Shown: positions 1 to 58,198 of the stretch, one piece after another
Layout: each line of letters starts with the position of its first letter
Numbering within the stretch: position 1 is the first letter of the stretch
From: Chloroflexia bacterium SDU3-3
GTDB lineage: Bacteria; Chloroflexota; Chloroflexia; Chloroflexales; Roseiflexaceae
Direction: 5' to 3'
Length of the DNA stretch: 58,198 nucleotides
Assembly: GCA_009268125.1 (NCBI GenBank)
Contig: WBOU01000015.1
Location: 1-58,198 of the forward strand
Program-made: the position numbers and the translations under genes
Notes under the pieces: generated by a model
Databases searched by the model: none
What the model was told of the DNA's origin: nothing
The model's input: the letters and a program-made list of their open reading frames with translations, nothing else

Positions 1-82
1 GCCCGAAGGCACCGCGTGCGACTTGCATGCATTAGGCACGCCGCCAGCGTTCGTCCTGAGCCAGGATCAAACTCTTCATCGC
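1..82 (-). rRNA. rrs: 16S rRNA gene, 5' end only
   Basis: The reverse strand at 56-75 reads AGAGTTTGATCCTGGCTCAG, the conserved start of bacterial 16S rRNA, followed by the usual GACGAACGCTGGCGGCG block. By analogy with E. coli, where this motif begins at nucleotide 8, the mature 5' end lies near 82. Only about 80 nt are present; the rest runs off the left edge. The sequence after GTGCCTAATGCATGCAAGTCG fits Chloroflexota but is too short to place the organism. Confidence 0.97.
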
Positions 83-5944: not shown

Positions 5945-6190
5945 TGTTTGGTGGGTGGATGCCCTGCGCAGGCGGTGCCTAGGGGCCAGCCCTCACATGG
6001 CGTCACGTTTTGACGGGTTTGTCATCAGTGATGGCGGTGGTGCTTGTTTGGTGGGTGGATGCCCTGCGCGGGCGGCGACTAGGGGCCAGCCCTCACATGG
6101 CGTCACGTTTTGACGGGTTTGTCATCAGTGATGGCGGTGGTGCTTGTTTGGTGGGTGGATGCCCTGCGCGGGCGGCGACTAGGGGCCAGC
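5945..6190 (+). repeat. 100-bp direct repeat, about 2.5 copies
   Basis: The blocks starting at 5961, 6061 and 6161 repeat at exactly 100 bp. The unit contains GGTGGGTGGATGCCCTGCGC, AGGGGCCAGCC, a CTCACATGGCGTCACG segment and GTCATCAGTGATGG. It is an amplified 5' part of the composite intergenic element. Confidence 0.9.
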
Positions 6191-6335
6191 CCCTAGTAAC
6201 CCCGCGAGGGGGTGTGACCCCCTTCGAACCCTCAATTTTGAGTGTTCCTGTGCTGAAAGCTGGCTGCTGATGTTCGTGCATATGGCCATCAATACACAAG
6301 CGACATCTTCGCCGCATGGGCTGGGTGGGTGAAGT
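6124..6335 (+). repeat. Composite intergenic element, copy A
   Basis: It starts ATCAGTGATGGCGG, then GGTGGGTGGATGCCCTGCGC, hairpin 1 (CTAGGGG/CCCCTAG, 6179-6196), hairpin 2 (GGGGGT/ACCCCC, 6208-6222), hairpin 3 (CTCAATTTTGAG, 6231-6242), then GTTCGTGCATATGGCCATCA and TCTTCGCCGCATGGGC. The usual 3' end is replaced by the 21-bp array. Other copies: B 33526, C 36840, D 39320, E 39055, F 29203. Confidence 0.85.
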
Positions 6336-6339
6336 GGGC

Positions 6340-6630
6340 GAGCGGTCGACGAAGGCGGGTGAGCGCTTGACGAAGGCGGGTGAGCGGTCGACGAAGGCGG
6401 GTGAGCGGTCGACGAAGGCGGGTGAGCGGTCGACGAAGGCGGGTGAGCGCTTGACGAAGGCGGGTGAGCGGTCGACAAAGGCGGGTGAGCGGTCGACAAA
6501 GGCGGGTGAGCGCTTGACGAAGGTGGGTGAACGCTTGACGAAGGTGGGTGAACGCTTGAGGAAGGCGGGTGAGCGCTTGAGGAAGGCGGGTGAGCGCTTG
6601 AGGAAGGCGGGTGAGCGCTCAACGAGGGCT
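6340..6630. repeat. 21-bp tandem array, 13 units plus a degenerate 14th
   Basis: Units of 21 bp begin at 6340, 6361 and so on to 6592. Two main types alternate irregularly: GAGCGGTCGACGAAGGCGGG and GAGCGCTTGACGAAGGCGGG (plus a final T); the last units carry CTTGAGG. It lies between facing halves of the composite element (6269-6327 and 6634-6690). Confidence 0.95.
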
Positions 6631-29202: not shown

Positions 29203-29428
29203 CTTCACCACCAAGGCTCCAAGAGAATAAACGGTGATAGAAAATGGCGAGAATCCGGCCTTACCTACCCGGCCCATGCGGCGAAGGTGCCGCTCGTGTT
29301 TTGATGGCCATATGCACGAACACTAGCCGCCAGCAATCGGCATCAGAACGCTCAAGATTGAGGGTTCCAAGGGGGCGATGCCGCCTGGTGGGGTTCCTAG
29401 GGGCTGGCCCTTATATGGTGTCACGTTG
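29203..29428 (-). repeat. Composite intergenic element, copy F
   Basis: On the minus strand it reads GTGACACCATATAAGGGCCAGCCCCTAGG, an imperfect hairpin 2, CTCAATCTTGAG (hairpin 3), GTTCGTGCATATGGCCATCA, GAGCGGCACCTTCGCCGC and then TCTCGCCATTTTCTATC with the tail CTTGGAGCCTTGGTGGTGAA. Long runs are abbreviated here; the 5' arm of hairpin 1 is partly lost. Confidence 0.85.
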
Positions 29429-33525: not shown

Positions 33526-33797
33526 TATAAGCGATGGTGGTCGTTGTTGGTTGGTGGGTGGATGCCCTGCGCGGGCGGCGACTAGGGGCCAGCCCCTAGT
33601 GACCCCGCGATGGGGCTACGCCCCCTTCGAACCCCCAATGTTGAGCGTTCCCGTAACGTCCCCTGGCAGCTATTGTTCGTGCATATGGCCATCAAACCAT
33701 GAGCGACACCTTCGCCGCATGGGCCGGGTGGGTAAAGCTGGCGACTCGCCATTTCTATTTTTCTTTCCTTGGGGTCTTGGAGTCTTGGTGGTAAAAA
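33526..33797 (+). repeat. Composite intergenic element, copy B (full length)
   Basis: The order is ATAAGCGATGG, GGTGGGTGGATGCCCTGCGC, hairpin 1 (CTAGGGG/CCCCTAG), hairpin 2 (GGGGC TAC GCCCC), CAATGTTG, GTTCGTGCATATGGCCATCA, GCGACACCTTCGCCGCATGG, GCTGGCGACTCGCC followed by ATTTCTATTTTTC, and the tail CTTGGAGTCTTGGTGGTAAA. This is one of the most complete copies. Confidence 0.88.
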
Positions 33798-33819
33798 CCT
33801 TCGCGTCTTCGTGGTAAAG
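33798..33819. repeat. CTTCG-type repeat at the end of copy B
   Basis: CCTTCGCGTCTTCGTGGTAA follows directly on the tail of copy B. Confidence 0.65.
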
Positions 33820-33860
33820 AGTCTTTTGGAAATAGGCTTGTTGTCAGCAGAAAGCCAGCC

Positions 33861-36753: not shown

Positions 36754-36839
36754 GGGCGTGCTCAGGTGGTGGCTAATGCGGCGATCATAGAGATTTTTCG
36801 TTTGGGCCTTTGCGCCTTTGTGGTGAATGAAGCGGCTTG

Positions 36840-37092
36840 ATTGGTTGGTGCGTGCCCTGCGCGGGCGGCGGCTAGGGGCCAGCCCCTAGCAACCCCGCCA
36901 TGGGGCTACGCCCCCTTGGAACCCCCAATTTGAGGCATTCCGATGCTGTTCTCCTGGCTGCTGGTGTTCGTGCATATGGCCATCAGAACCGTAGCGGCAC
37001 CTTCGCCGCATGGGCCGGGGGGGTAGGGCTGGCGATTCGCCAGTTTTTCTTGCTTCTTGTTCCCTGGGTGCCTTGGAGCCTTGGTGGTAAAA
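36840..37092 (+). repeat. Composite intergenic element, copy C
   Basis: GGTTGGTGCGTGCCCTGCGC, hairpin 1 (CTAGGGG/CCCCTAG), hairpin 2 (ATGGGGCTACGCCCC), CAATTTGAGGC, GTTCGTGCATATGGCCATCA, GCGGCACCTTCGCCGCATGG, then CTGGCGATTCGCCAG followed by TTTTTCTTGC and the tail CTTGGAGCCTTGGTGGTAAA. The 3' palindrome plus T run looks like an intrinsic terminator. Confidence 0.88.
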
Positions 37093-38897: not shown

Positions 38898-39054
38898 TTC
38901 ACCACGGAGATTTTCACCACGAAGACGCGAAGGCACGAAGATTTTTACCACCAAGACTCTAAGACACCAAGGGGACCGTTTTACCACGAAGATGCGAAGG
39001 CACGAAGATTTTTACCACCAAAACTCCAAGACGCCAAGAGAACAGGAGGACCGA
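38898..39054. repeat. Block of CGAAGG and CCAAGG repeats
   Basis: TTCACCACGAAGACGCGAAG, GCACGAAGATTTTTACCACC, AAGACTCTAAGACACCAAGG and two further cycles. The two subtypes alternate here, showing that they form one superfamily with 8-9 bp internal periodicity. Confidence 0.85.
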
Positions 39055-39250
39055 TTTACCACCAAGACGCCAAGGGGCAAAAAGGCCATAGAAACTGGCG
39101 AATTGCCAGCCCTACCCACCTGTCCCATGCGGCGAAGGTGTCGCGAGAGTCTTGATGGCCATATGCACGAACATCAGCCGCCTGTTTTCCAGCACAGAAA
39201 CGCCCAAAATTGGGCTTCCAAGGGGCATCGCCCTCACATGGTGTCACTTT
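39055..39250 (-). repeat. Composite intergenic element, copy E
   Basis: On the minus strand: AAAGTGACACCATGTGAGGG, hairpin 2 (GGGCGATGCCCC), hairpin 3 (GCCCAATTTTGGGC), GTTCGTGCATATGGCCATCA, GCGACACCTTCGCCGCATGG, CTGGCAATTCGCCAG followed by TTTCTATGG, and the tail CTTGGCGTCTTGGTGGTAAA. The 5' end differs from copies A-D. Confidence 0.85.
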
Positions 39251-39319: not shown

Positions 39320-39535
39320 CGATCTCGCCCACCCGGCCCATGCGGCGAAGGTGCCGCTCGTGCACACTGGCCATATGCACGAACACCAGATGCCTGATTT
39401 CAGCATAGGAATGCTACAAATTGGGGGTTTCGAAGGGGGCAACGCCCCCTCGCGGGGTTCCTAGGGGCTGGCCCCTAGGCGCTGCCCGCGCAGGGCATCC
39501 ACCCACCAAACATTGACCAATGCCATCGCTGATGG
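39320..39535 (-). repeat. Composite intergenic element, copy D
   Basis: On the minus strand: CATCAGCGATGGCATTGG, GGTGGGTGGATGCCCTGCGC, hairpin 1 (CCTAGGGGCCAGCCCCTAGG), hairpin 2 (GGGGGCGTTGCCCCC), CCCAATTTG, GTTCGTGCATATGGCC, GCGGCACCTTCGCCGCATGG. The tail repeat is absent. Confidence 0.85.
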
Positions 39536-39746: not shown

Positions 39747-39841
39747 CATGAAAGTGACACCTGCTGAGGGGCATCGCCCCTGGCGGGGTTCCAAGGGCGC
39801 GGAGCCCTTGGTGCCGCCCGCACAGGGCAGTCACCAAGCAA
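39747..39841 (-). repeat. Variant copy of the element, copy G
   Basis: It contains CATGAAAGTGACACCTGCTG, GGGGCATCGCCCC and GGCGGGGTTCC, and in place of CTAGGGG/CCCCTAG it has the different stem CCAAGGGC/GCGCCCTTGG, then GGTGCCGCCCGCACAGGGCA. The replacement of one stem by another supports a conserved structure. Confidence 0.7.
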
Positions 39842-50353: not shown

Positions 50354-50489
50354 TTTTTTACCACCAAGACGCCAAGGCACCAAGGAACAAAAGAGCGCTT
50401 TTACCACGAAGACACGAAGGCGCGAGGGAAAAACGGTAAGAAATCTCGCGTCTTCGTGTTTTCGCGTCTTCGCGTCTTCGTGGTGAAGA
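50354..50489. repeat. Inverted pair of CCAAGG/CGAAGG repeats
   Basis: TTTTACCACCAAGACGCCAA and TTTTACCACGAAGACACGAA on the left face TCGCGTCTTCGTGTTTTCGC and CGTCTTCGTGGTGAAG on the right. The block lies between tetR and the glycosidase promoter and can form a long imperfect hairpin. Confidence 0.75.
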
Positions 50490-50534
50490 ATCTCCGGTGT
50501 ATCAAGAATGCATGAGATCTGCTGGATAGATGTC

Positions 50535-58024: not shown

Positions 58025-58198
58025 ATGGTGATTAAGCGTTCGGCGATGGTGATTAAGCGTTCGGCGATGGTGATTAAGCGTTCGGCGATGGTGATTAAGC
58101 GTTCGGCGATGGTGATTAAGCGTTCGGCGATGGTGATTAAGCGTTCGGCGATGGTGATTAAGCGTTCGGCGATGGTGATTAAGCGTTCGGCGATGGTG
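58025..58198. repeat. Perfect 21-bp tandem array, at least 8 units
   Basis: The unit ATGGTGATTAAGCGTTCGGC plus G repeats from 58025 without a single change, 8 full copies and 6 nt of a ninth, and runs off the window. Read in frame it spells MVIKRSA seven-residue units, but there is no ribosome binding site. It shares the 21-bp period and an AAGCGYTC core with the array at 6340 (minus strand). Confidence 0.97.

Follow-up and report, generated by a model that had tools for sequence, protein, structure and literature searches.

The repeat and its surroundings

The window, by which is meant the whole 58,198-nt stretch of DNA analysed here, starts inside a 16S rRNA gene (positions 1-82, minus strand; Rfam SSU_rRNA_bacteria, 59 bits) and holds several complete and partial copies of a dispersed, non-coding, intergenic repeat of about 205 nt. 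The genome is that of a member of the Chloroflexales (6.76 Mb in 51 contigs, the window being on contig C15), placed by its kinship in genome searches in the order of Candidatus Chloroploca, and the repeat abounds in it: a covariance model built from 40 copies and then run on the whole genome finds at least 150 of full length. (A technical note: most of the family statistics below were computed on 150 scored copies, and the genomic total is larger; the exact hairpin-2 pattern has 115 matches genome-wide and is present in 84 of the 150 scored copies, numbers that together suggest a total of about 205 elements.) The features of the window that bear on what follows are these:

6130..6336 (+): copy A, about 205 nt, edges approximate (genome search; model search, C15:6149-6325; boundary decay in 150 copies)
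6161..6173 (+): hairpin 0 (H0), GCCC-TGCGC-GGGC, a 4-bp stem that hardly varies (columns 43-55; each pair Watson-Crick in at least 146 of 149-150 copies)
6178..6197 (+): hairpin 1 (H1), 8 bp, loop CCAG, outer pair 6178-6197 (covarying pairs 60-79 and 62-77, E at most 0.02)
6205..6226 (+): hairpin 2 (H2), CGAGGGGGT-GTG-ACCCCCT(T)CG, bulged T at 6224, outer pair 6206-6225 (covarying pairs 88-107, E 0.02, and 95-99, E 0.18)
6231..6242 (+): claimed hairpin 3, CTCAA-TT-TTGAG, in copy A but not conserved in the family (pairing and covariation against shuffles)
6272..6320 (+): sequence-conserved 3' half, GTTCGTGCATATGGCCA ... CTTCGCCGCATGGG (conservation per column, 150 copies)
5945..6129 (+): two truncated 5' units (hairpin 0 and half of hairpin 1), a 100-nt tandem repeat before copy A
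33530..33740 (+): copy B
36838..37030 (+): copy C, with outer pair G-C in hairpin 1 and C-G in hairpin 2
39326..39530 (-): copy D
29255..29420 (-): partial copy F, starting midway through hairpin 1
39105..39235 (-): partial copy E, 3' part
39791..39811 (-): variant G of hairpin 1, CCAAGGGC-TCC-GCGCCCTTGG
6179-6196 (+), 33582-33599 (+), 36872-36889 (+) and 39461-39478 (-): hairpin 1 as CTAGGGGCCAGCCCCTAG in four copies
6208-6222 (A), 33612-33624 and 36902-36914 (B and C), 39435-39449 (D, minus strand): hairpin 2 sites
6231-6242 (A), 29351-29362 (-) (F), 39202-39215 (-) (E): hairpin 3 sites

The hairpin strings that the initial annotation had quoted from copies A to G are all present, at or near where it placed them. 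The consensus, about 205 nt long, was delimited by boundary decay in the alignment of 150 copies. Its 5' part is the chain of hairpins H0, H1 and H2, with ACCCC-type linkers between them, and the bulged T of H2 is kept in 140 of the 150 copies. The 3' part, about 90 nt (GTTCGTGCATATGGCCA ... CACCTTCGCCGCATGGG), is conserved in sequence; within it no covarying pair reached significance in a tree-aware test on the 150 copies.

All scored copies but one (149/150) lie outside predicted genes, in gaps with a median length of 858 nt, as against 145 for all gaps. Their flanking genes are tandem, divergent and convergent in approximately the proportions of other long gaps, with no orientation bias, and the distances from copies to gene starts and to gene ends are alike. 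A role as terminator or cis-regulator was considered and rejected, orientation bias and 3'-end bias both being absent in this genome.

The flanks of the copies are a mosaic of other palindromic modules. One of these, a 5'-flank module AAAGTGACACCATGTGAGGGGC...GCCCCTCACATGGTGTCACTTTT (loci L037, L043 and L040, for example), itself varies in matched fashion: ATG/CAT, TGT/ACA, AAG/CTT. Two families of repeats of about 30 nt, ACCACCAAGACTCCAAGACACCAAGG and CCTTCGCGTCTTCGTGGTA, are often found 3' of the element (window 38903-39083, 33765-33825 and 50355-50494). In the 100-nt tandem repeat of truncated elements (window 5945-6192), H0 and half of H1 are joined to TCACATGGCGTCAC, ahead of a complete copy; chimeras joined inside hairpins likewise precede many other copies. 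Minisatellites with an exact 21-nt period, built on more than 20 unrelated unit sequences, occupy 6336-6629 and 58025-58198 of the window and many other loci (L168, L107, L012). Of the 55 intergenic tandem arrays within the 670 kb that were read, 40 have period 21 and often lie less than 200 nt from a copy of the element, a closeness that is biased, these 670 kb having been picked around element copies.

Covariation in the hairpins

The initial annotation held that three hairpins of the element had undergone compensatory changes, loops varying while pairing was kept, and that this is the signature of selection on structure. For H1 and H2 the pairing claim is borne out by the family: the edge pairs of H1 are Watson-Crick in a fraction 0.940 of the 150 copies (0.691 +/- 0.011 when columns are shuffled), and the pairs of H2 in a fraction 0.921 (0.757 +/- 0.008). 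A separate count in the 40-copy alignment gives 41 double-changed cells as against 9.3 in shuffled columns, a level that 0 of 500 shuffles attain; two mistyped hairpin-0 pairs enter into the whole-structure totals of this count and leave its rows for H1 and H2 unaffected.

Covariation over an alignment of genomic copies had been set beforehand as the check on the claim. The test used imitates R-scape without being that program: for the 150 copies, an average-product-corrected G statistic is set against a phylogenetic null made by redistributing substitutions over a FastTree tree. The four highest-ranking column pairs are:

60-79 (hairpin 1): C-G 98, G-C 34, A-T 13, T-A 2; E<0.02
88-107 (hairpin 2): G-C 95, C-G 40, A-T 2; E 0.02
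62-77 (hairpin 1): T-A 106, G-C 20, C-G 8, A-T 7; E 0.02
95-99 (hairpin 2): C-G 119, T-A 28; E=0.18, above 0.05

Three stem pairs (60-79, 62-77 and 88-107) thus pass E<0.05, and all four Watson-Crick types are seen at 60-79 and at 62-77. Pairs 60-79 and 88-107 fall just outside the hairpins as they were first drawn; the latter, second strongest, extends H2 around its conserved bulged T. Recombination between blocks, named in advance as what could undo the claim, is real around the element, as the mosaic flanks attest, but it does not account for the covariation: the top four among 743 variable column pairs no more than 30 nt apart are stem pairs of H1 and H2, so that general recombination linkage is no explanation, and the signal in paired columns is well above that in other variable columns a similar distance apart.

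Hairpin 3 fares differently. A copy satisfies, on average, 3.353 of the hairpin's five pairs, as against 3.346 +/- 0.014 in shuffled columns (150 copies); its covariation is no better than that of shuffles (354/500); and all five pairs can form in only 29 of 150 copies. The concordant hairpins of copies A, E and F are picked examples, and selection on structure, as originally proposed for all three hairpins, stands for H1 and H2 (on tree-aware covariation, on the mutually exclusive double changes and kept bulge described below, and on the coupled outer pair of H2 in other phyla) and falls for the third.

Change is also unevenly distributed over the element. Of 175 core columns, 38 are without a single change on terminal branches of the copy tree; under even change about 0.1 such columns would be expected. 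Variation is thus constrained, whether copy by copy or by way of active source copies. The copy tree is poorly resolved and nearly star-like, and copies recombine; counts of independent events are consequently rough.

Two further observations concern the loops. A base in the loop of H1 and a base in the linker before H2 (columns 69 and 86; window 6187 and 6204) tend to change together (C-G 113, T-A 27; not significant, E 0.33), and this is possibly a lone tertiary pair. The loops of H2 (columns 96-98; window 6214-6216) include reverse-complementary sets: ATC 28 and GAT 26, GTA 19 and TAC 14. Inversion of the hairpin as the general source of its loops was rejected: inverse partners of GTT (23), GTC (20) and GTG (6) are almost absent.

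Selection, copying or founders?

Must matched changes in the two arms of a stem reflect selection? Template switching can restore hairpins without it, as has been argued for RNA genes (PMC8794818), and template switching or gene conversion inside palindromes, by rewriting one arm from the other, would let complementarity persist in the present repeat with nothing selected. Apparent double changes, events on single branches that lead from one Watson-Crick pair to another, number 78, as against 25 that lead to a mismatch (pairs 60-79, 62-77, 88-107, 95-99 and 61-78), intermediates are few, and the flanking hairpin modules show matched variation too, all of which such copying would accommodate. 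It also predicts changes in blocks and loss of the bulge; instead, one pair changes at a time. Double changes at 60-79 and at 62-77 are mutually exclusive (one copy has both; Fisher 8.5e-7), the bulged T between columns 105 and 107 is kept in 40 of the 40 copies that are flipped at 88-107, 22 copies retain a T.C mismatch at 90-104, and the G-tract pairs are invariant in sequence, beyond mere complementarity. The single-pair double changes and the kept bulge argue against template-switch copying, which we regard as distinctly unlikely to be what maintains the stems.

Alternatively, covariation might be a record of subfamilies: a few master copies with matched hairpin types, shuffled by recombination. 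The outer pair of H2 does flip almost exclusively from G-C to C-G, recurrently across the copy tree, as recombination among subfamilies would give. Several pairs, on the other hand, exist in three or four Watson-Crick types, so that at least about ten origins would be needed; unpaired variable columns at similar distances are far more weakly associated; and the same pair varies among G-C, C-G and A-T in other genomes. A founder effect of this kind is very improbable.

DNA or RNA

Compensatory changes are usually taken as proof of a functional RNA; in this family the details point to DNA hairpins. Selection on an RNA of the plus strand is expected to spare G.U and not A.C, and selection on an RNA of the other strand to do the reverse. 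Over the stems of H1 and H2 there are 17 G.U and 18 A.C cells, which is no RNA wobble signature on either strand; the four covarying pairs have 154 double-changed cells, 2 G.U, 3 A.C and 14 other mismatches. That G.U is as rare as A.C, taken together with the lack of orientation bias, would favour pairing that is Watson-Crick only, as in DNA hairpins, rather than RNA, the absence of wobble being indirect evidence. The initial annotation had left the choice at "RNA or single-stranded DNA"; the balance tips to DNA.

The case for RNA is that the copies encode a structured transcript (an sRNA or a 3'-UTR element) and that the pairs are selected in it. The covariation in H1 and H2 is real, the loops and the 3' half are strongly conserved in sequence, the folding energy is below that of shuffles on both strands (z -2.0 and -3.1) and, in several other genomes, the hairpin chain seems by eye to begin right after stop codons. 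Set against these are the 17 G.U to 18 A.C, where the functional strand should spare G.U, the absence of orientation bias to flanking genes and of any preference for gene 3' ends, and the lack of an Rfam match at gathering threshold. (The best weak match, on the minus strand, is of the Clostridiales-2 RNA model, RF02937, to the hairpin chain: it scores 20.6 bits, far under the 58.6 needed. Eighteen loci in Clostridia that carry the core of H2, discussed below, likewise have no Rfam match at gathering threshold.) We consider it unlikely that the pairs are selected in RNA.

Relatives and the hairpin-2 core in other phyla

A search of 25 genomes of the same family did not turn up the whole element, and the exact pattern of the element has no match in GTDB contigs; the 3' half (6272..6320) has no exact pattern match elsewhere in the GTDB genome contigs, and viral contigs yielded no matches. 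Diverged relatives, with the same H0-H1-H2 order but other stem sequences, exist in another family of the order. The core of H2, searched over GTDB contigs with both ends of its outer pair free to be G or C, occurs at no fewer than 80 loci in at least 32 genomes, among them Chloroflexota, Acetobacteraceae, Rhodobacterales, Clostridia, Deltaproteobacteria and others. In 93 cases found with a related expression, among the matches listed, the outer pair is C-G 49 times and G-C 44 times, and never mismatched. When it is left fully free, a third type, A-T, appears in one Acetobacteraceae genome, along with one C-A (Acetobacteraceae) and one A-G (Chloroflexota). The core is patchily distributed, being present in 7 of 400 Chloroflexota genomes and 8 of 299 Acetobacteraceae genomes, and this patchiness fits a mobile or repeatedly amplified element. 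In these genome searches a reversed control pattern has zero matches everywhere. The hairpin-core sequence appears in no paper of the literature searched, a body of text from which most subscription papers are absent.

Might the fold be something other than a plain hairpin? The repeat could be a DNA structural element, kept by the host or acting for itself, composed of C-/G-/C-tract units (CCCC-GCGA-GGGG-nnn-CCCC-TTCGAA-CCCC) that adopt alternative hairpins or an intrastrand triplex. It would then be comparable to the BoxC, PIT and TM repeats, which also are G/C-tract palindromes, intergenic, without strand bias, present in many genomes and with no mobile gene nearby; TM repeats, moreover, lie at unstable loci (PMC4666352), and chimeric joints inside hairpins are common in this genome. 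The length of the stem G-run tracks that of the 3' flanking C-run (Spearman 0.73 over 93 matches and 0.64 over 32 genome means, p=8e-5, among the matches listed), a relation that hints at a third strand or at alternative pairing, and for which shared ancestry and species-wide tract length are confounders (the 5' flank also correlates). The TM, BoxC and PIT consensus is another one, each unit here would provide 3-6 triads as against about nine in TM, and a duplex suffices to explain the changes at stem-edge pairs. The covarying pairs speak for plain hairpins; the only hint of a triplex comes from tract lengths. As the main explanation, a structural element of this sort is highly unlikely. A broader proposal, speculative and on the whole unlikely, is that hairpin-chain repeats form a class that crosses phyla and spreads without RAYT, in whose C-/G-/C-tract unit the stem pair and the third tract would co-vary, selection acting on an alternative DNA fold (switching hairpins or intrastrand triplex) in replication and not on RNA.

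Probable mobility and the proposed role of the hairpins

From copy number, patchiness and placement we infer that the element is mobile. What might move it? The genome has two Y1 transposases, both of the ordinary IS200/IS605 kind and one with a TnpB neighbour; neither is near an element. RAYT was rejected as mobiliser, there being no RAYT-like neighbour and a Y1 gene being absent from 15 of the 25 H2-core carrier genomes examined. Terminal inverted repeats, as in a MITE, are absent: the two ends, compared in inverted orientation, match no better than shuffled sequence does. The edges of the element are mosaic, and a search by joined flanks turned up one candidate empty site, on contig C1 (373357-373452; L082), where the modules found elsewhere on the 5' and 3' sides of the element abut each other; it could also be a deletion.

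The explanation that we prefer, and consider on balance probable, is that of a non-autonomous, structured, intergenic mobile repeat in which the pairing of H1 and H2 is kept as DNA hairpins for copying or moving by some factor. The element would consist of the G/C-tract hairpins H0-H1-H2 in a chain and, 3' of them, the sequence-conserved stretch of about 90 nt. During copying or movement of the element, H1 and H2 would have to form Watson-Crick-paired DNA, in single strands exposed in replication or as a cruciform, and pair-wise compensatory changes would keep them paired. The selected step, we infer, would be recognition of the DNA hairpins.

With some 150 copies in one genome, and others in unrelated genomes, the family offers a clean case in which to separate selection on RNA, selection on DNA hairpins and template-switch copying. 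The same hairpin core recurs across phyla, often in genomes that lack the transposase thought to move such repeats.

Comparison with known dispersed repeats

The element resembles REP/REPIN, SDR and bcr1 repeats but is not a REP by the tests set out below. The small dispersed repeats (SDR) of cyanobacteria and bcr1 of Bacillus cereus are non-autonomous, structured, intergenic repeats, and bcr1 is of similar length (147-167 nt). What sets the present family apart from both, to go by their descriptions, is the chain of three hairpins with a sequence-conserved 3' half, and an H2 core found across phyla. Bcr1 is listed in PMC2267715.

With REPs and REPINs the element shares an intergenic location, high copy number, palindromic character and occurrence in mosaic clusters (PMC3116915, PMC3733652), and compensatory changes across a hairpin have already been reported for REPINs (PMC3116915). 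It differs in being about 205 nt long, as against 20-40 nt for REP, in the absence of a RAYT from this genome, and in having, in the consensus, no GTAG or CGTC tag abutting the stems of H0 to H2: CGTC arises only through the loop of H2, and GTAG only at the 3' border. In some copies the GTAG of the 3' border adjoins a degenerate hairpin, which may be a separate REP of the GTAG type.
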